Below, one piece after another: positions 31,718 through 46,056 of a stretch of DNA of 64,000 bases. The position numbers and the translations under genes are program-made. Below the pieces are notes generated by a model that was not told the DNA's origin, searched no databases, and saw nothing but the letters and a program-made list of their open reading frames with translations. Numbering within the stretch: position 1 is the stretch's first letter; the number at the start of each line of letters is the position of its first letter. This DNA comes from Desulfoscipio geothermicus (GTDB taxonomy: Bacteria > Bacillota > Desulfotomaculia > Desulfotomaculales > Desulfallaceae), in contig JAENZP010000003.1 of NCBI GenBank assembly GCA_016841205.1, positions 1-64,000 of the forward strand. The letters run 5' to 3'.

Positions 31718-31813
31718 CGTTCCCCGGCAACCTGGCAATCATGGCAGTAAATTTGCTGCTGTAGACCCATGGCTTTGCGTCACACCCTTTCGGATGTTTT
31801 GCCTTTATCTGGT
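31718..31813 (-). promoter_or_regulatory. Cyclic-di-GMP-I (GEMM) riboswitch
   Basis: Read on the minus strand, the order is AAAGGCAAAAC, the GAAA tetraloop in CCGAAAGG, GACGCAAAGCC, then GGGTCTA, a variable stem with CAGCAG/CTGCC, and finally GCCAGGTTGCCG. These are the conserved core, tetraloop and tetraloop receptor of GEMM-I aptamers. The terminator at 31671-31708 is the expression platform. It controls the RodZ-like HTH gene at 31263-31601. Confidence 0.92.
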
Positions 31814-38153: not shown

Positions 38154-38275
38154 CTATATAAACCTTTCAGTATTCTTATATTACTTTTTTAAATTATAGC
38201 ATACTTATTTATTCTGTTCCGTTTAAGTTTTCCCCTAATACAATAGGAAATTGCTTTCCGTCAGATCCGATTAGC

Positions 38276-38375
38276 CGGTTTTTCAAAGGCTTGGAGAGCG
38301 CTGCCAAAGAAGCCCTTAATCCAAGTGCAATTCCGGCTGCTGGCAAATAGCCCTATAGATACAGGCACAACCATT
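38276..38375. repeat. Diverged about 100-bp repeat, copy 1
   Basis: Shares ggtttttcaaaggct, gagagc/tactgccA, ccaagtg, ccggctgc and gcaaat.gcc with 39757-39860, in order. The two copies flank the mscS gene. Protein-like frames exist on the minus strand of both, so they may be relics of one gene family. Confidence 0.5.
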
Positions 38376-38441
38376 AATAGTAACCGAGCTAGAAATTTCC
38401 ATTAAAGATTGTTGTAGCAAAGCAGCTCTTATATTCCTTTT

Positions 38442-38608
38442 TGTTCTTTAAAAATTCAAAGATGGCTCATTTGACAAGTTAAAATCTAATTGTTATTCTT
38501 AAATAATTAATCAAATAACTTTATTATTTGTTGCAAGTTGGATAGATAGCTTAGTAATCGTTTGAGAAAGATATATATCTTGGTCAAGCGAGGTGAAAGT
38601 TTAATTAC
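38442..38608 (+). promoter_or_regulatory. Conserved promoter-leader element of mscS
   Basis: About 167 bases that align with 44119-44291 read on the opposite strand, upstream of ablA. Conserved in order are tgttctttaaa, the promoter (TTGACA 38471-38476, 17-base spacer, TATTCT 38494-38499), aattaatca, tttgttg, atagcttagtaatc and the palindrome AAGATATATATCTT (38568-38581), ending in ttaattac. Most of the similarity lies after the likely transcription start, so a leader RNA as well as a shared promoter is implied. Both downstream genes answer osmotic stress. Confidence 0.75.
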
Positions 38609-38629
38609 TTAAATATTAAATAGCTGTAA

Positions 38630-38667
38630 CTCCGGTCCATCCTCATCTGGAAGAGACGACCAAGGAG
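38630..38667 (+). promoter_or_regulatory. Hairpin covering the mscS ribosome site
   Basis: CTCC-GGTC (38630-38637) can pair with GACC (38658-38661) and GGAG (38664-38667), the latter being part of the AAGGAGG ribosome site. This could repress translation until opened, perhaps by the conserved leader upstream. Confidence 0.4.
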
Positions 38668-39621
38668 GTGGGGTTAATTTTTATTGATTTCTGGCAAGAT
38701 GGGTATCAGTTAATCATAAAATACCTCAATGTTAATTTTCAGTTCGTATTAGCTAAATTGTTGTACACCGGTGTTATTTTATTCATTACTTATTTGTTGC
38801 TTAAACTGCGGGTTACTGTTGTTAATAAAATATTTGACCGGTCTACTAACGATATTAATAAAGCCAAAACACTGAAGACGCTGCTGCTTTCGGGAACCCG
38901 CTATATTATTTATATTGTGGCAGTTCTTACTCTGCTGGCCATTTTTGAAATTAACATTACCCCCATGCTGGCCAGTGCCGGTATTGTTGGTTTAGCCGTT
39001 GGTTTTGGTGCGCAAAACCTGGTCAAGGATATTATTACCGGTTTTTTTATCATGTTTGAAGACCAGTTTCATGTGGGTGATTTTATCGAAGTCAACGATC
39101 AGACTGCCGGTACGGTGGAGGAATTGGGTTTGCGCATGACCACTATTAGGGAATGGAGCGGTAAAAAATTCTATATCGCTAATTCGGAAATTAAAACAGT
39201 TAGAAACTATAACCGCGGCCACCTGCGTACCGTCGTTTCTGTCTCAGTACCCTTTGAGGTAAACCTGCAAAGAGTATTTACTACGCTGGAAAAAGTCTGC
39301 CAGAACATCACCAGTATACATGCCGATAAGCTGATTAGACAGCAAGATGGTTCTTTTGTTGAATCCCCCCAGATTTATGGCATTACGGATATTAACAAAG
39401 ATGAGCGGGGGGTGGTGTTCACAGTGATAGCCGTAGTTGATCCCGCTTACTACTGGTTTTTAGAAAGGGAATTTAGGAGAGCAATTTTGGAATATTTCCA
39501 GGCTGCAGGAATTACCATAGCATACCCGCAATTAAATATTAATATTAAAACAGCCCAGAACTTTGAAACTTTGCATGGTACTAGCCAGGGCGGGGCAGTT
39601 GATTCTGAGACTTTGGCTTAA
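38668..39621 (+). CDS. mscS: Mechanosensitive channel of the MscS family
   Basis: A 317-residue small-conductance channel that releases solutes on hypo-osmotic shock. Three membrane helices lie in about residues 20-130. The pore helix is ASAGIVGLAVGFGAQNLVKD (about 103-122), with the Gly/Ala packing pattern of MscS TM3. The beta domain follows (FHVGDFIEVNDQTAGTVEEL). The start is unusual: GTG 38668 overlaps the AAGGAGG site, and the next in-frame candidate with good spacing is an ATT at 38677. A non-canonical AUU start is possible. A conserved promoter-leader shared with ablA lies upstream, linking the gene to osmoadaptation. Confidence 0.88.
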   Translation: MGLIFIDFWQDGYQLIIKYLNVNFQFVLAKLLYTGVILFITYLLLKLRVTVVNKIFDRSTNDINKAKTLKTLLLSGTRYIIYIVAVLTLLAIFEINITPMLASAGIVGLAVGFGAQNLVKDIITGFFIMFEDQFHVGDFIEVNDQTAGTVEELGLRMTTIREWSGKKFYIANSEIKTVRNYNRGHLRTVVSVSVPFEVNLQRVFTTLEKVCQNITSIHADKLIRQQDGSFVESPQIYGITDINKDERGVVFTVIAVVDPAYYWFLEREFRRAILEYFQAAGITIAYPQLNINIKTAQNFETLHGTSQGGAVDSETLA

Positions 39622-39756
39622 AAATGTATAGTACATGTATGTAAATCTAGAAGAAATTATCCATGATATTTTTGTTACGAATTAGCAAAAAAGAAAATTT
39701 GGAAATTGTATTGGGAGGGCGGTAGACTAACAGTTCAGAAAATTTTGTCAGATATA

Positions 39757-39860
39757 CTTAACAGGTTTTTCAAAGGCTTTGAGAGTACTGCCACAACAAC
39801 CCCGAAACCAAGTGTAACCGGCTGCAAGCAAATGGCCATACAGGTACCGGAAAAACACTA
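39757..39860. repeat. Diverged about 100-bp repeat, copy 2
   Basis: Second copy of the element at 38276-38375. The minus strand reads RYLYGHLLAAGYTWFRGCCG, then STLKAFEKPV, which looks protein-derived but is not identified. The 39622-40142 stretch otherwise holds no gene. Confidence 0.5.
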
Positions 39861-40142
39861 CCACAACCGCCCCTAACTAGGGCTGCCACCGTGCGGTAAA
39901 ATCTCCTCAGAGACAATTATTGCATAGGTAATTGAAAACACTGCAATATCTGACTTCCCACCCCAGAAGCCTGCATTCCTTGAAAACAAGTCTAGTTTAA
40001 GCTTGCCCAACACAGTAATATGCTATATAATTTTTTAATAAACATAACACTGGATAATGATGCCGGTCAACCCATACTTCAGATCACGTGCGAATAGATG
40101 GCTATTGGCAGAAGAAATAAGCATATAAAGGAGACGGAAGCT

Positions 40143-40580
40143 ATGATTAAAAAAATACTGGTTGCTTACGACAACGGAGTAAAAGCCCAAAAAATTCTGG
40201 AAACTGCGATTGAGATTGCCAAAGGTTGCCAAACAGAAATTTGCCTTCTAACCTCAGTAAAAATGCCGCATTTTATATCAGACGTCGCTAGTCCTGATAT
40301 GTGTAATGATCTGGAAGAACAAACTCGCCGATATTTTACAGAAATTCATAAAGAAGCTGAAGCCATGATTACCAAAGAAGGTATTCCTGTAAGTTCGGTT
40401 ATCCTTAATGAAAGTCCTGGAGAAGCGCTTGTACGCTATGCTGACCAGGAGAAATTTGACCTGATTGCGATAGGTTCAGCTAACCGGGGAGCCATAGAAA
40501 GGGTGCTCCTGGGGTTAGGTAGTGTGTCTAATTATGTATTGCATCACGCTAAATGTCCAGTCTTGATTATTAAGGACTAA
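40143..40580 (+). CDS. Universal stress protein, UspA family
   Basis: A 145-residue single-domain Usp. ATG 40143 is chosen because AAAGGAGACGGAAGCT precedes it and the family begins MIKKILVAYDNG. The ATP-binding signature G-2x-G-9x-G(S/T) is visible in AIGSANRGAIERVLLGLGSV (about 108-127), so this is an ATP-binding type. It ends HHAKCPVLIIKD. A short copy of its C terminus lies at 54296-54349. Located in the osmotic-stress group between mscS and ablAB, with its own terminator. Confidence 0.9.
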   Translation: MIKKILVAYDNGVKAQKILETAIEIAKGCQTEICLLTSVKMPHFISDVASPDMCNDLEEQTRRYFTEIHKEAEAMITKEGIPVSSVILNESPGEALVRYADQEKFDLIAIGSANRGAIERVLLGLGSVSNYVLHHAKCPVLIIKD

Positions 40581-40692
40581 GTCTAGAGTACCGATTTGTG
40601 CTTAACCATAATTCTGATCTACCTCCGATTTTAGGTCAATTTCAATATTAGTCTAGAAGGGAATGCCATCTTAAATCCTAACCCACAACATT

Positions 40693-40730
40693 AAAATTTA
40701 GCCCCTCTGTTTTCAGGAGGGCTAAATTTT
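40693..40730. terminator. Bidirectional terminator
   Basis: AAAATTTAGCCC (from 40693) pairs with GGGCTAAATTTT (to 40730), with an extra CTC/GAG step inside. It lies between uspA and the convergent HPP gene and can end both. Confidence 0.85.
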
Positions 40731-40891
40731 CCTATTTTATTTCAGTGATTTTTAGCCTCCACTCGGTTCAACTGAAGCCGGGTCCTTGTCAGCAGTCATA
40801 ATTGATTCGTTTATTTGAGAAATACTTTAAATAATGGTACCACCAAATTAAGCACTCAATCTTATGCTACAGAAATTATACAAACGCTAAA

Positions 40892-41461
40892 TTAATACCA
40901 GTAATCAGGATATTTACGTTGGCTTGATATGTTATTAACTAATAAGGCAATGATGAGTAGGCATATTATACCTAGTCCCACGGGTGATACGATGAAACTA
41001 TAACCTTGGCCTGTGTAAATAGCTAAGAAGGCTGTTGCCCCACCGGGTGGGTGCAGGGTATATGTTAATGTCATAACAATAATGGCCAGCGTTACACCAA
41101 GTGGGATAACCCACCAAGCATTACCAAAGAGCCAATATACCGAAACGCCTATAAATGCAGAGATTACATGCCCACCTAACACATTCCTGGGTTGAGCCAT
41201 TGGTAAATGGCAGGCCGCATAAAGCAGTGCTGCCGATGCGCCAAAGGAAGGAAGTAATAATGGCAGGTTATAATGATCAGCCAGTGCAGCCACCAATCCT
41301 AACCCGGCGAAACTGCCCAGGGCAGTGACAAAGATATTGGAAAAAGATATCTTTGGCATGCTGGCACAGTGTCCCCCCTTCATTTTACACAGGTAAACGG
41401 CAAGTGTTTTCCATATAAAGGGGTAAGTATCCTGCATAGTCCGTTCAACGGAGTTTTTCAT
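40892..41461 (-). CDS. HPP family membrane protein
   Basis: A 189-residue integral membrane protein of the HPP family. Four to five hydrophobic segments are seen, and the signature motifs are LLPSFGASAALLYA (about 75-90) and HPPGGATAFLAI (about 145-156), which name the family. Some members transport nitrite in chloroplasts; bacterial roles are unclear. Start taken at ATG 41461, ten bases after AAAAAGG; longer frames to 41470 and 41506 are possible. The N terminus has two Cys (CKMKGGHC). Confidence 0.8.
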   Translation of the reverse strand: MKNSVERTMQDTYPFIWKTLAVYLCKMKGGHCASMPKISFSNIFVTALGSFAGLGLVAALADHYNLPLLLPSFGASAALLYAACHLPMAQPRNVLGGHVISAFIGVSVYWLFGNAWWVIPLGVTLAIIVMTLTYTLHPPGGATAFLAIYTGQGYSFIVSPVGLGIICLLIIALLVNNISSQRKYPDYWY

Positions 41462-41750
41462 TAATATCATCCTTTTTCTGCGCTTGATGTCATATATTCT
41501 AGTCACGCCTTCTTATAGTGTATTGTATGCCTTTAGCAAACGATGTGTATAAAAAAATAGCAGATATAACATAATTTTCTCCGTTAAAGTACAAAATCCT
41601 TCCCCAGTTAGTATATAGGTCTATCCATGCACATAGCGCATAATGCTTAAGATGACATCCTATAGCGAGTGCGTTCCCTATCGCGTTAATATGGCCCGTT
41701 GCCTCGAAGTATTAGGAGATAATAATAGCAACCACTCACGGAAGTAAAAA

Positions 41751-41778
41751 AACCTCTCCGTTATAATACAGAGAGGTT
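41751..41778 (-). terminator. Terminator of ablA-ablB
   Basis: AACCTCTC (41751-41758) pairs with GAGAGGTT (41771-41778); on the minus strand a T-run follows. It is 31 bases past the ablB stop. Confidence 0.85.
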
Positions 41779-41808
41779 CAAAGAAAAAGTGTCTGAGGGA
41801 GCAGTACC

Positions 41809-42654
41809 CTACAAATACCAGATGTTCATATTTTCATACCCACCACTAATGTGGCAGTTATTTTTCAATGTCCCGCCAAAAACATACCCATGCCGGTAAA
41901 AAACACTGTTCATTCCGAAGGAAGAGGCCCGGGCCAGGCTGAACAAGCAGTTTATACCCAACCCCCGGCACGCTCTTCCCATTTTGTCCAGCAGCACAGA
42001 AGCAAGTCCCTGCCCCCTGTATTCAGGCAAGGTGGCAAAATCGGTCATTTCAGCCCTGCTGTTCCGGTAATCAATTTCCGCAGAAGATATGGCGGCTATC
42101 TTTCCGTAAATTATAGCCAGCCAGAATTTATCGCCATCTTTCATTCTCTTTATCAGGTACTCAGGTTGAAATACCGGGCTGGGGTACGTTTCAAAAACTC
42201 TGCTGAACACCTCTGTCATTTCCCTGGTATCGTCCTGGGAGGCGTCTCTAAATTCATAACCTTCGGGTTGGTATACTTTTTTATATTCCTTTTGTATTAC
42301 TTCATCCAGGAGCTTTCTCTCATCCATCAGGCTTGGACTTAGCCCCCGGCGGGGCTGGGTATAGCCGGCCAAAAAAACCGCGTCTTTTCCATTAAAGTAT
42401 CCCTTAATTCGTCCTTCCGGCTTAAACATGCCATAATTCTCTTCTTCCATTACCGGAAGAATTATTTTTTCCAGCCCCGATTCAACAGCGTATGAGTAAA
42501 GATAATCTTGCATTTCTAATACGTCTTGATACTGGCATCGGATAACCCAGATCCTCTTATTCCTGTAGTCAGCAGTTGCCTCCAGGTCAAAGGCTTTTGA
42601 CTTGTACACCCATAAGCTATTGTTTGTTTCTGTTTTTTTTTCGTTAACCGCCAT
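41809..42654 (-). CDS. ablB: Beta-lysine N6-acetyltransferase
   Basis: AblB acetylates the N6 of beta-lysine with acetyl-CoA to give N-epsilon-acetyl-beta-lysine, a compatible solute of methanogens and some anaerobes. The 281-residue length fits. The C-terminal GNAT domain carries the acetyl-CoA loop TLPEYRGQGLASVLLDKMGR (about 208-227) and ends with FYRHGYVFGGTLKNNCHISG. The start codon directly follows the ablA stop (TAG-ATG), so the pair is translationally coupled. Together with mscS it forms an osmotic-stress group. Confidence 0.9.
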   Translation of the reverse strand: MAVNEKKTETNNSLWVYKSKAFDLEATADYRNKRIWVIRCQYQDVLEMQDYLYSYAVESGLEKIILPVMEEENYGMFKPEGRIKGYFNGKDAVFLAGYTQPRRGLSPSLMDERKLLDEVIQKEYKKVYQPEGYEFRDASQDDTREMTEVFSRVFETYPSPVFQPEYLIKRMKDGDKFWLAIIYGKIAAISSAEIDYRNSRAEMTDFATLPEYRGQGLASVLLDKMGRACRGLGINCLFSLARASSFGMNSVFYRHGYVFGGTLKNNCHISGGYENMNIWYL

Positions 42655-43881
42655 CTAACCTACCACTCTCTTATTTATTGGAGGACTTACTTTACCATAT
42701 TTCAATACAGCGGCAATCCCGGTTAAGTTGTTTTTTTCATTCCGGCAGTGTTTGCAATTACATTTTTCCTTTTCAGAGGAAGGCTCTGTATAGACGTATA
42801 TATTTCCCTCGAAATTACGGAGAACAATTTTGTCTTCAGACTGAGATAGTACATATTGGGGCAATAGCGGGATTTTACCTCCACCCCCGGGAGCATCGAT
42901 GACAAAGGTTGGCACTGCCAGGCCACTGGTATGCCCTCTGAGATTTTCCATTATTTCAATGCCCTTGCTGACCGGGGTGCGAAAATGTCCGATCCCCTGG
43001 GATAAATCGCACTGGTAAATATAATACGGCCTTACCCGGTTCCGGACTAATTTTTGCATTAGTTCCTTCATTATTCCCGGACAATCATTGACTCCCTTTA
43101 ACAAAACCGTTTGGTTACCTAATGGGATACCGGCGTCCGCCATGCGCGCGCAAGCTGCGCTGGCCTCGGCGGTCAACTCCGCCGGGTGGTTAAAATGGGT
43201 GTTAACCCAAATTGGGTGGTATTTCTTTAACATATTACAGAGCTCTTTGGTTATCCTCTGGGGCAAAACCACGGGCGCCCTGGTGCCGATACGAATTATT
43301 TCCACATGCTTGATGGAGCGTAGTTGTCTTATAATATTCTCCAAGGCATGGTCAGACAAAGTAAGTGGGTCGCCACCCGACACCACGACGTCCCTTATTT
43401 TGCTATTTGACTGGATGTAGGCGATAGCCCTGTCTATTTGGGTTTTGGGCAAAGCTCTATCCCGGGAACCGGCAAGTCGCCGCCGAGTGCAATGCCTGCA
43501 ATACATAAAACATTGGTCGGTTACTAAAAATAGTACCCGGTCCGGGTAACGGTGGGTAACCCCGGGCACCGGAGAGTCTACCTCTTCATGCAAAGGGTCG
43601 TGCATATCCTCACAGCCTTGATGTAATTCCTCCAGCGTCGGCACAGACTGCTTGCGGATGGGGCATTGGGTATTATCCACGTCTATGAGCGATGCATAAT
43701 AGGGAGTTATAGCCATCTTGAATTTGTTTAAACACCTGTTAATGTCCATTACTTCCCTGGAACCCAAATTCAGTACTGTAGAAAGCTGCTCACCGGTAGT
43801 TATTCTATTGCTCAATTGCCACTGCCAGTCATCCCATTTTTCCTTTTCATGACAACCCGTAACTATCATTCCAACCTCCAT
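42655..43881 (-). CDS. ablA: Lysine 2,3-aminomutase
   Basis: AblA converts L-alpha-lysine to L-beta-lysine by radical-SAM and PLP chemistry, the first step of acetyl-beta-lysine synthesis. The radical-SAM triad is C124, C128 and C131 (CFMYCRHC), followed by RRRLAGSRDR. Substrate and PLP motifs follow: VVSGGDPLTLSDH, RIGTRAPVVLPQR, and the PLP lysine region FVIDAPGGGGKIPLLPQYVL. A Cys-rich C-terminal tail (CNCKHC) provides extra metal ligands as in KamA. Length 408 residues is normal. A conserved promoter-leader lies 240-410 bases upstream. Pairing with ablB excludes a purely catabolic role. Confidence 0.92.
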   Translation of the reverse strand: MEVGMIVTGCHEKEKWDDWQWQLSNRITTGEQLSTVLNLGSREVMDINRCLNKFKMAITPYYASLIDVDNTQCPIRKQSVPTLEELHQGCEDMHDPLHEEVDSPVPGVTHRYPDRVLFLVTDQCFMYCRHCTRRRLAGSRDRALPKTQIDRAIAYIQSNSKIRDVVVSGGDPLTLSDHALENIIRQLRSIKHVEIIRIGTRAPVVLPQRITKELCNMLKKYHPIWVNTHFNHPAELTAEASAACARMADAGIPLGNQTVLLKGVNDCPGIMKELMQKLVRNRVRPYYIYQCDLSQGIGHFRTPVSKGIEIMENLRGHTSGLAVPTFVIDAPGGGGKIPLLPQYVLSQSEDKIVLRNFEGNIYVYTEPSSEKEKCNCKHCRNEKNNLTGIAAVLKYGKVSPPINKRVVG

Positions 43882-44118
43882 TCTTAACTATTACAAATAC
43901 CATCCTGCCAACTCATTTTATAATAATAGGTTGCCAGTATCAATAAGAATATATCCCCTTATAGGTTGGTTTTGAACTATTAGGTTATAATAACTCTTTT
44001 AAAACCTGTTAAAACTCCCGTTTTTGTAAAATTAATTTACACGTTTATTACGCTACTTCAATATCAGCTAAATTGAAATATCCAAATAACTTGACCAGCC
44101 TATTAATATTTACTTTTA

Positions 44119-44291
44119 GTAATTCAACTTATACCTCCCTTGGCCTTAGGGAGAAGATATATATCTTATCTCATTTGATTATTAAGCGATCCATGAACTT
44201 TTAACAAACATTAAGTTGTCTGATTAATATTTTTGAATAACAATTAGATATTAATTTGTCAAATGTACAATCTTTATATCTTTAAAGAACA
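44119..44291 (-). promoter_or_regulatory. Conserved promoter-leader element of ablA
   Basis: Minus-strand counterpart of 38442-38608. The promoter reads TTGACA (44262-44257), 17 bases, TATTCA (44239-44234). The palindrome AAGATATATATCTT is at 44154-44167. Immediately after it a small hairpin CTCCCT/AGGGAG forms (about 44134-44153). By eye about 70% of bases match the mscS copy. About 240 bases of further leader precede the ablA start. Confidence 0.75.
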
Positions 44292-44422
44292 ACAATAAAA
44301 CCATCCAAGGAGTGGATATGTTCTTATTAATGCCGGCAACTCATTATTGTAAAATAGGTTGTCAGGTTAATGTTTATTATAGTATAGTATAAAATATACT
44401 AGAAAAATGCCAGGGAGGAAAA

Positions 44423-44837
44423 ATAGCTTTTCTTTTTACCAAAGTGCATGGATTGGGCAACGATTTTATTCTGGTAAACAAAAATGGGGTACAGGATTTG
44501 CCCGGTGATCTGGCCGGGCTGGCAAGTAAAGATTTGCGACCGTAATTTCGGGGTGGGTGCAAACGGGCTGATGCTGATCGGTTCGGGTAAAGAGGCCGAC
44601 CTTTGGAAACACATCCGGCCTTTTCCCGTAAAACTAATGTGGAGTTTGTTCAGGTTTTAAATGAAAATGAGGAATGGGTATACCGGCAGAACCGTCCGGG
44701 TGCACCTCTATAACGGGGCACTGGATATAGAGTGGGCGGCGGATAATGACGGGCCCTGCCGAGTAGATTTTAACCAGCGATTATCCCATCAGCTAGTGAA
44801 GGCCGTAAATCTAGTTTGGCAGGTAAATGGTTTATGA
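44423..44837 (+). pseudogene. dapF: Diaminopimelate epimerase, decayed
   Basis: GGGAGGAAAA precedes what was the start (now ATA 44423). The frame reads IAFLFTKVHGLGNDFILVNK, then DLAGLASK. A one-base insertion shifts it to CDR-like NFGVGANGLMLIGSG. A large internal deletion then joins to TNVEFVQVLNENE and RTVRVHLYNGALDIEWAADN, ending VWQVNGL at 44837. Both catalytic Cys regions are lost (the second lay in the deleted part). In many dapL-containing organisms dapF precedes dapL, as here. Lysine and peptidoglycan synthesis need another dapF copy elsewhere. Confidence 0.85.
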
Positions 44838-44871: not shown

Positions 44872-46056
44872 TTGAACATGCAATTTGAACAGGCGCAAAG
44901 GATCAAAAGATTGCCACCTTACTTGTTTGCCCGTATTGAGAAATTAATTAAAGAAAAGCGAGATGCCGGAGTGGATATCATTAGCCTTGGTATTGGCGAT
45001 CCCGATATGCCCACCCCGGATTACATTATAGAAGAATTGCAAAAACAAGCTGAGATCGGAGCCAACCACCAGTATCCTTCTTCGGCAGGCATGCTGGCAT
45101 ACCGGAAGGCCGTGGCCCAGTGGTACAAAAACAGGTTTGGTGTGGAGCTTGACTCCGCTAGTGAAGTGGTTTCCCTTATTGGCTCTAAAGAGGGGATTGC
45201 GCACATATCCTTTTGTTATTTAAACCCCGGCGATACTGTTTTGGTGCCTGACCCCGGGTATCCGGTGTACGCAGGCGGTGCCATATTAGCCGGTGCCGAG
45301 CCCTACTATATGCCCTTAAAGGCGGAAAAGAGCTTTTTGCCTGATTTAAGCGATATTCCTGTTGATGTGGCTCGCCGGGCTAAAATGATGTTTATCAATT
45401 ACCCAAACAATCCTACCGGTGCCGTGGCCGGCGAAGAGTTTTACCGGGAAGTGATCTCTTTTGCTAAAGAGTATAATATTTTAATTTGCCACGATGCTGC
45501 TTATTCGGAAATTGCCTACGATGGCTATGAACCACCAAGTTTCCTGCAGTATCCCGGTGCCAAGGAAGTAGGCATAGAGTTCCACTCGGTATCCAAGACT
45601 TACAACATGACCGGCTGGCGCATTGGCTGGGCCGCCGGACATCCCCAGGTGGTTGAGGCGCTGGGCAGATTAAAGTCAAACATTGATTCAGGGCAGTTTC
45701 AGGCCGTTCAATATGCCGCCATCCAAGGACTGACCGGACCTCAAGATGCCGTGCTGCAGATGCGGAAAGTCTACCAGGAACGGCGGGATATTCTGGTGGA
45801 TGCCTTAAATAGTATGGGCTGGCAGTTGGAAAAACCGAAGGCTACGTTTTATGTATGGGCACCGGTTCCTGCCGGCTATACTTCGGAATCTTTTGCCGAG
45901 CTGGTTTTAGATAAGGCCGGCGTGGTGATCACCCCGGGCAGCGGGTATGGCAGCAATAGTGATGGCTTTTTCCGAATTGCGTTAACGATGGAAAAGGAGC
46001 GGATGATAGAGGCTCTGGAGCGAATGAAGAAAAATATCGGTATGGTTGAGTTTTAA
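44872..46056 (+). CDS. dapL: LL-diaminopimelate aminotransferase
   Basis: DapL converts tetrahydrodipicolinate directly to LL-diaminopimelate with glutamate as donor, the short lysine route used by Peptococcaceae, plants and others. The 394-residue class I aminotransferase shows [15 protein letters not shown] (about 34-48), YPNNPTGAV (about 178-186), [12 protein letters not shown] and the PLP lysine in [17 protein letters not shown] (about 241). TTG 44872 is seven bases from GGAGGG and is preferred over ATG 44878. The opening [20 protein letters not shown] is typical. It follows the dapF pseudogene by 34 bases and ends at a strong terminator. Confidence 0.92.

Follow-up and report, generated by a model that had tools for sequence, protein, structure and literature searches.

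BusR is a GntR/RCK_C repressor driven by cyclic di-AMP (c-di-AMP) and, in the available part of its literature, is described as controlling one betaine transporter. As far as the accessible text of PMC8517857 goes, its operator is GAC-N22-GTC and occurs twice, over the promoter and closer to the gene, Trp159 and Phe182 lock the apo-protein, and BusR/busA systems also occur in Lactococcus lactis and Tetragenococcus halophilus. A review of ectoine mentions BusR in passing in its available portion (PMC5924519). For beta-lysine synthesis, the lysine 2,3-aminomutase gene of Dehalobacter sp. CF is reported to have a tandem Na+/c-di-AMP riboswitch in front of it, and dapB and ablA to have Na+ riboswitches (PMC9337991, available text). 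A title-level literature search, covering few subscription papers, found no title linking BusR with control of ablA, beta-lysine, or mscS. Here we analyze a 64,000-nucleotide (nt) stretch of Desulfoscipio geothermicus DNA (the window; contig JAENZP010000003.1, positions 1 to 64,000), in which related promoter leaders stand upstream of mscS and ablA. The repeated stretches are copies of one promoter, and their key part is probably the landing site of a salt-responsive BusR-family repressor. Specifically, with a probability of about 0.74, the element is a promoter-operator region from the ectoine/hydroxyectoine uptake operon ehuBCDA, whose core inverted repeat is the predicted site of the organism's own BusR orthologue.

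The two leaders, copy 1 upstream of mscS (38442-38619, +) and the distal copy 2 upstream of ablA (44291-44103, -), are 77% identical in alignment (E 1.1e-31), copy 2 being taken as a paralogous duplicate. Their local alignment score was 158, whereas 1000 sequences generated by a first-order Markov model of copy 2 averaged 21.7 and never exceeded 39. An earlier note on this DNA had put the identity near 70% and had described a shared promoter, a perfect palindrome, and conservation lying mostly after the promoter; alignment and sequence bear out these three features. The predicted promoter reads TTGACA-17-TATTCT in copy 1 (38471-38499, +; boxes 38471-38476 and 38494-38499) and TTGACA-17-TATTCA in copy 2 (44234-44262, -; boxes 44262-44257 and 44239-44234), and the palindrome AAGATATATATCTT stands at 38568-38581 and 44154-44167. 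No further place in the 3.38-Mb genome fell below E 0.012; the next best were the palindrome region on the other strand (E 0.012) and a 42-base match on contig C11 (E 0.024). Copy 2 had also been taken to drive the ablA operon. It does lie upstream of ablA, but ∼230 nt separate its end from the start of ablA, and a second promoter-like sequence, TTGATA-17-TAAAAT (43943-43938/43920-43915), intervenes. A phage or plasmid origin was considered and rejected, copy 2 having no match at E 0.01 in phage and plasmid collections.

Copy 2 was then used as the query against 150 genomes, the organism's own included. Beyond that genome, matches were found in two members of the same genus, G002 (query positions 1-167 of 182) and G003 (13-115); a match in G029 was discounted as chance, being AT-rich and inside an open reading frame (ORF) that by eye resembles a DNA methyltransferase. 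The ORF that follows the leader in G002 and G003 scores above the cutoff of TIGR02995 (ectoine_ehuB), and in G001 a shorter homologue (85 bases, 74% to the window, E 6e-7) also precedes ehuB. Homologous leaders thus stand before the ectoine-uptake gene in three congeneric genomes, an osmolyte-gene context that supports the osmotic regulon element or shared operator suggested in the earlier note. The predicted promoter is retained in these ehu copies, with a spacing of 18; the palindrome AAGATATATATCTT is not present in the G003 copy. The gene order in G002 is leader-ehuB-ehuC-ehuD-ehuA-mscS (L063 8397-12862), where ehuC was tested on a partial ORF (195.3 bits, just below the model cutoff of 196.95), ehuA has only a general ABC_tran domain match, and ehuD is named by position. 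In the window's own genome no ehuB match was found at E ≤ 1e-50; 3 of the 31 genomes searched have one.

The flanks distinguish the two copies. On the mscS side, similarity to G002 starts ∼43 bases before the leader (38399-38543 versus L063 8354-8499) and reaches upstream of the promoter, whereas on the ablA side it stops at the leader. Because the similarity exceeds the leader only on the mscS side, copy 1 is most simply the orthologue of the G002 ehu leader. Since G002 has the ehu-mscS order and no ehuB match was found here, it would be the promoter that remained beside mscS after loss of ehuBCDA, a loss deduced from three relatives. Copy 2 would most simply be a duplicate of an ehu-type leader placed upstream of ablA. 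In G003, ablAB has the ehu operon nearby, and no leader copy was found directly before ablA. The ablAB block (window 41778-44026 versus L062 7941-10198) is inverted relative to G003, the HPP and USP stretches beside it keep their orientation, and one end of the inversion is near leader copy 2. These relationships suggest reuse of an operator region upon loss of an uptake operon, with an orphan promoter left before mscS and a copy reaching ablA.

Descent by itself would account for the long similarity, which among the 150 genomes is confined (with the discounted G029 match aside) to the congeneric G002 and G003, and also for a degraded operator at mscS. It is nevertheless unlikely that the leaders are merely recent ehu promoter copies that share no regulator today and are conserved by age only, for the inverted-repeat core occurs upstream of other osmolyte operons, far past the reach of leader homology. 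A sixth, weak relative of the leader precedes the opuAC operon of G001 (nhmmer E 2.5e-5); it was outside the nhmmer training set, the other five copies inside. All six share the promoter and, beyond the -10 box, the inverted repeat AACTT-N12/13-AAGTT; the G001 ehu and opu copies lack the blocks that follow the operator. The most widely kept part of the leader is GACAACTT-N12/13-AAGTTGTC, with the consensus GACAACTT-N13-AAGTTGTC. Across 71 sources (the window, fetched ablA and busR loci, and larger stretches, with overlapping and repeated loci included), CAACTT-N11..14-AAGTTG with at most one mismatch was found at 40 places, versus 5.2 expected from a Markov model. At least eight of these lie upstream of ablA, covering the predicted -10 box as TATAATAAGTTG or TATAATGAGTTG. 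In relatives, such sites precede ablA, opu, and ehu, frequently over the predicted -10 box.

Within the window, the mscS leader carries a degenerate operator, AATAACTT-N13-AAGTTGGA (38514-38542, +), with 4 of 16 letters off, and copy 2 carries GACAACTT-N12-AAGTTCAT (44193-44220, -), with 3 of 16 off and 13.9 bits by the profile R1, whose 20 training sites all came from relatives, the window and the ehu leaders being excluded. The best window sites adjoin the repeated element and are outside it. One (43907-43935, -; 4 of 16 letters off; 23.1 bits) coincides with the -10 box of a predicted promoter proximal to ablA (43943-43915), and the other (44335-44363, +; 3 of 16 off; 24.6 bits) lies in the dapL promoter region. 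The divergent ablAB-dapL region therefore holds three predicted sites: proximal ablA, the duplicated ehu-type leader, and dapL. The dapL site has a counterpart before dapL in G003 (L131 844-872), and sites upstream of ablA were found also in G003 and G002 (L015, L016). Compared with G003 (L131 780-1060), the dapL leader contains ∼340 extra bases (window 44455-44790), both ends matching by eye.

Profile searches recovered the sites at 44333-44366 (E 1.6e-6), 43904-43938 (E 4.7e-6), and 44199-44223 (E 0.0044) in the window. Over the whole genome there were 18 matches at E ≤ 1, strands counted apart, with the dapL operator scoring best. Among the 11 matches listed (E ≤ 0.22) were dapL (8.8e-5), proximal ablA (2.6e-4), a site at C9:1203 that precedes an OpuAC-OpuAB-OpuAA operon (0.0066), and two sites at an ABC transporter adjacent to busR (0.044 and 0.045), each value being that of the better strand. 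An upstream site (E ≤ 0.1) was present at 23 of the 30 best-scoring ablA loci; 12 of those 23 had supplied training sites, and outside training the count was 11 of 18, the window's own locus included. Three ablA loci (L036, L039, L042) carry sites elsewhere too. Opu-type operons have sites in G001, G006 (two), G007, G008, G012, and G015. Ten profile matches were hand-picked and fetched for gene context, and seven adjoin a fitting gene: opu in the organism's own genome, glutamate 2,3-aminomutase in G022, an OpuAC-type gene in G027, dapB in G046, an ablA-type gene with an SBP3 transporter in G046, ablA in G002, and, in G032, a gene resembling sarcosine/dimethylglycine methyltransferase (188.8 bits, far under the model cutoff of 550). 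Next to the matches at L257, L261, and L263 no clear osmotic gene was found. The recurrence of the core repeat before ablA, opu, dapL, and dapB supports a shared operator, most strongly for ablA and dapL; the copy 2 site is weak.

A candidate repressor is encoded in the same genome. The protein at G000:C19:128597-129259 combines an N-terminal GntR winged helix-turn-helix domain (PF00392, 46.8 bits) with a C-terminal RCK_C (TrkA_C) domain (PF02080, 63.7 bits). Its best PDB matches are 7wjg (9e-27) and S. agalactiae BusR (7b5t, 4e-24), and it aligns with 7b5t over near full length. By the residue numbers of PMC8517857 (with a two-position offset between chain and paper numbering, which we infer), the DNA-contact residues Arg38, Arg53, Gly70, and Gly72 are kept, Lys54 is replaced by Arg, and Lys36 by Phe. 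Just downstream of busR, in the gap that separates it from an amino-acid-type ABC transporter (L071 2050-2330, on C19), a related promoter element that includes the repeat is duplicated in tandem; each of the two copies, which are 137 bp apart, has a promoter followed by GGCAACTT-N12-GAGTTGCA. One such busR-adjacent site was found in G003. Two diadenylate cyclase domains and two c-di-AMP riboswitches (RF00379 model), both away from the leaders, are also encoded, and c-di-AMP is therefore probably made by this organism.

Presence of the site tracks presence of BusR. BusR orthologues were detected in 38 of 60 relatives (E ≤ 1e-8), and a site at E ≤ 0.05 was present in 25 of these 38 genomes versus none of the 22 without BusR (best 0.06); with the 13 training genomes removed, the counts were 12 of 25 versus 0 of 22 (p 1e-4). 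Likewise, at ablA loci where BusR status was tested, a site was found at 20 of 21 with BusR and 0 of 3 without. We also examined the best 80 of 367 busR loci (named records), 10 of which held sites at E ≤ 0.2, 11 distinct ones in all. Ten of the 11 fall within the 6.2% of bases lying ≤500 nt upstream of busR, ablA-type, opu, SBP3, mscS, ehuB, or dapL matches (p 9e-12). The eleventh, between busR and opuAA matches of a Clostridiaceae metagenome-assembled genome (MAG), is a perfect GACAACTT-N12-AAGTTGTC, that is, GAC-N22-GTC. Three of these loci (L144, L147, L149) come from genomes identical or almost identical to G003, G007, and G010; the sites counted in them lie outside the training set. The fetched flanks include ablA-type genes at 13 of the 80 loci; the Desulforamulus aeronauticus case (L206) is a glutamate 2,3-aminomutase (TIGR04368, 651.1 bits versus a cutoff of 650).

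An operator for some other regulator, such as a MarR-type osmolyte repressor, would be consistent with the MarR-family gene after ehuA in G001 (L066 4218-4700), with a spacing of 23 rather than the published 22, with the 70 of 80 busR loci that have no site at E ≤ 0.2, and with the fact that BusR binding here is a prediction from sequence. We consider this improbable, as sites immediately adjoin busR in Desulfosporosinus (L211, L212), a Desulfitobacterium MAG (L217), Desulforamulus aeronauticus (L206), a Desulfotomaculum MAG (L208), and a Clostridiaceae MAG (L218), as site and BusR co-occur, and as the long two-arm geometry fits the BusR ruler described in the available text of PMC8517857.

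Several observations nevertheless weigh against assigning the repeat to BusR, beyond those busR loci that lack a site. The residues aligned to Trp159 and Phe182 are Arg and Lys, and since the lock is not kept, the response to ligand may differ. The mscS site is absent from the R1 list of the window at E ≤ 10, and the distal ablA site reaches only E 0.22 in the whole genome. The stricter-filter run gave no site at E ≤ 0.05 for 13 of the 38 genomes with BusR. The BusR-less genomes stand phylogenetically apart from the family, so the BusR and site counts are not independent trials. In the flanks of the 80 busR loci, mscS-type genes appear at 3, and no EhuB match is listed at any. Finally, a pattern search allowing ≤2 mismatches gave 30 places in 16 family genomes, all with BusR, versus 36 in a reversed control, and none in the organism's own genome. 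Eleven of the 30 have 0-1 mismatch, 10 of them before ablA, opu, or ehu and one inside an ORF, the reversed control having been compared at the ≤2-mismatch level. In the 22 BusR-less genomes the same search gave 7 places (control 34; p 0.003), none at 0-1 mismatch. Because the loose pattern is not enriched over its reversed control, we rely on the profile, the sites with ≤1 mismatch, and the BusR-less contrast.

The earlier note had left the choice between an operator and a leader RNA open. A riboswitch-like structured RNA in both mRNAs, sensing ions or an osmotic second messenger, would suit the length of conservation after the promoter, the fold of the mscS leader (z -2.98 against shuffles, 1/200), the two c-di-AMP riboswitches elsewhere in the genome, and the Na+ riboswitch in the window. 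Most other evidence makes such an RNA very improbable. Neither leader has an Rfam match at the gathering cutoff or even at E ≤ 5. The c-di-AMP riboswitch model (RF00379) has no match in the leaders, as the note had judged for the ydaO class, and the Na+ riboswitch (RF03071) is not in them, its only window match being at 39952-40012 (-). Single-sequence folds differ in shape among the four leader copies, and the three other than mscS barely outdo their shuffles (z -0.70 to -1.11). The consensus structure of the four copies is weak (-3.84 kcal/mol), runs partly through promoter bases, and shows a double change in one sequence at 4 of 24 pairs. In the 20-site alignment the inverted-repeat arms pair in 88.1% of cells, and their covariation (0.064) equals that of shuffles (0.068): the letters of the inverted repeat are conserved, the pairing is not. 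In some genes, including ablA relatives, the repeat covers the predicted -10 box, and in others it comes after the box; the absence of the downstream blocks from G001 and of the palindrome from G003 also speaks against a conserved RNA. Conservation of letters without covariation, the position on or after the -10 box, and the lack of a site at E ≤ 0.05 in every one of the 22 BusR-less genomes thus indicate a DNA operator rather than a leader RNA. Two smaller candidates were rejected. A hairpin hiding the ribosome site of mscS, proposed in the note, is indistinguishable from chance (z -0.60; 57/200 shuffles fold at least as well). A small leader peptide after the GAGGTG block is disfavored by reading frames that differ between copies and by a TTG that is TTT in mscS (by eye).

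By analogy with BusR of Streptococcus and Lactococcus, we propose that a leader descended from the ehuBCDA promoter is controlled as follows. At low osmotic stress, ligand-loaded BusR (c-di-AMP in the known case) would sit on the repeat and block the promoter; upon osmotic upshift, BusR would be released and genes for osmolyte uptake and synthesis would be expressed. With 4 of its 16 letters lost, the mscS site may no longer hold a repressor, and mscS may now be driven by an unrepressed promoter.

Among the predicted targets in the window, both ablA (lysine 2,3-aminomutase; 42655-43881, -; TIGR03820, 602.9 bits, cutoff 525.4) and ablB (beta-lysine N-acetyltransferase; 41809-42654, -; TIGR03827, 271.2 bits, cutoff 205.1) score above cutoff, as does dapL (LL-diaminopimelate aminotransferase, lysine supply; 44872-46056, +; TIGR03540, 622.8 bits, cutoff 593.25). 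The channel gene mscS (38668-39621, +; GTG start as listed) has Pfam MS_channel domains and scores below the NCBIfam equivalog cutoffs. At its start (38668-38690), the G002 and G004 relatives read TTTCTATGGAT at the likely ATG and the window reads TTTTTATTGAT; because the ATG is changed to ATT, translation may start at GTG 38668 or at ATT. Two similar remnants flank mscS (38275-38380 and 39770-39900; TTTTCAAAGGCTT.GAGAG..CTGCCA..., by eye) and are perhaps pieces of one decayed, once duplicated minus-strand gene. The Na+ riboswitch at 39952-40012 scores 50.5 bits. Between it and 38153, the only ORF of ≥70 amino acids on the riboswitch strand is antisense to mscS, and the 200 bases after the riboswitch resemble, by eye, a decayed membrane-protein C terminus; G003 has a degenerate version (L062 10375-10440) not called by Rfam. 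A c-di-GMP-I riboswitch (RF01051, 81.3 bits) lies at 31723-31813 (-).

More broadly, it is possible, though we rate it at slightly under even odds, that in Desulfotomaculales and neighbors a BusR clade with a 23-bp ruler and a changed apo-lock acts as a global osmoregulator, its ligand perhaps not c-di-AMP alone. If so, this clade would govern betaine uptake and synthesis, ectoine uptake, synthesis of N-acetyl-beta-lysine and beta-glutamate, lysine supply (dapL, dapB), and, via the ehu-mscS linkage, a mechanosensitive channel. For the anaerobic Clostridia of the Desulfotomaculum group, the sites provide an explicit, testable operator that would tie BusR to acetyl-beta-lysine synthesis, lysine supply, ectoine uptake, and possibly a mechanosensitive channel.

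Among known systems, ectoine control by EnuR/EhuR is similar in that a GntR-superfamily protein governs ectoine uptake, but EnuR is of the MocR/GabR type with pyridoxal phosphate and catabolic inducers, whereas the protein here has RCK_C (PMC5924519, available portion). The Dehalobacter tandem riboswitch shares the c-di-AMP-linked control of beta-lysine synthesis, with dapB another target there (PMC9337991, available text). Control there is by RNA and here by a predicted protein-DNA contact; the window has no c-di-AMP riboswitch, and its Na+ riboswitch is outside the ablA leader. The BusR clade would, if the broader proposal is true, be the protein counterpart of the c-di-AMP riboswitch at Dehalobacter ablA. 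Relative to the busA operators, the sites here have a longer half-site, GACAACTT, and mostly a spacing of 23, a further point against BusR, although the Clostridiaceae and Desulforamulus sites have 22, as do the busR-adjacent sites of the organism and of G003. Measured against GAC-N22-GTC, the mscS copy differs at both ends and in spacing (AAT...GGA, spacing 23), the distal ablA copy keeps GAC and spacing 22 with CAT instead of GTC at its right end, and the proximal ablA and dapL sites are strong R1 matches at spacing 23, with one of the outer GAC/GTC triplets at dapL and neither at ablA. The predicted targets (ablAB, dapL, dapB, ehu, and perhaps mscS) also extend beyond busA, and the apo-lock residues of S. 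agalactiae BusR are replaced. With these differences, the closest counterparts are the pAB1 and pAB2 operators of S. agalactiae busA, which, in the available text of PMC8517857, likewise have two inverted half-sites separated by about three helical turns, sites over and downstream of the promoter, an osmolyte transporter as target, and a GntR/RCK_C repressor.

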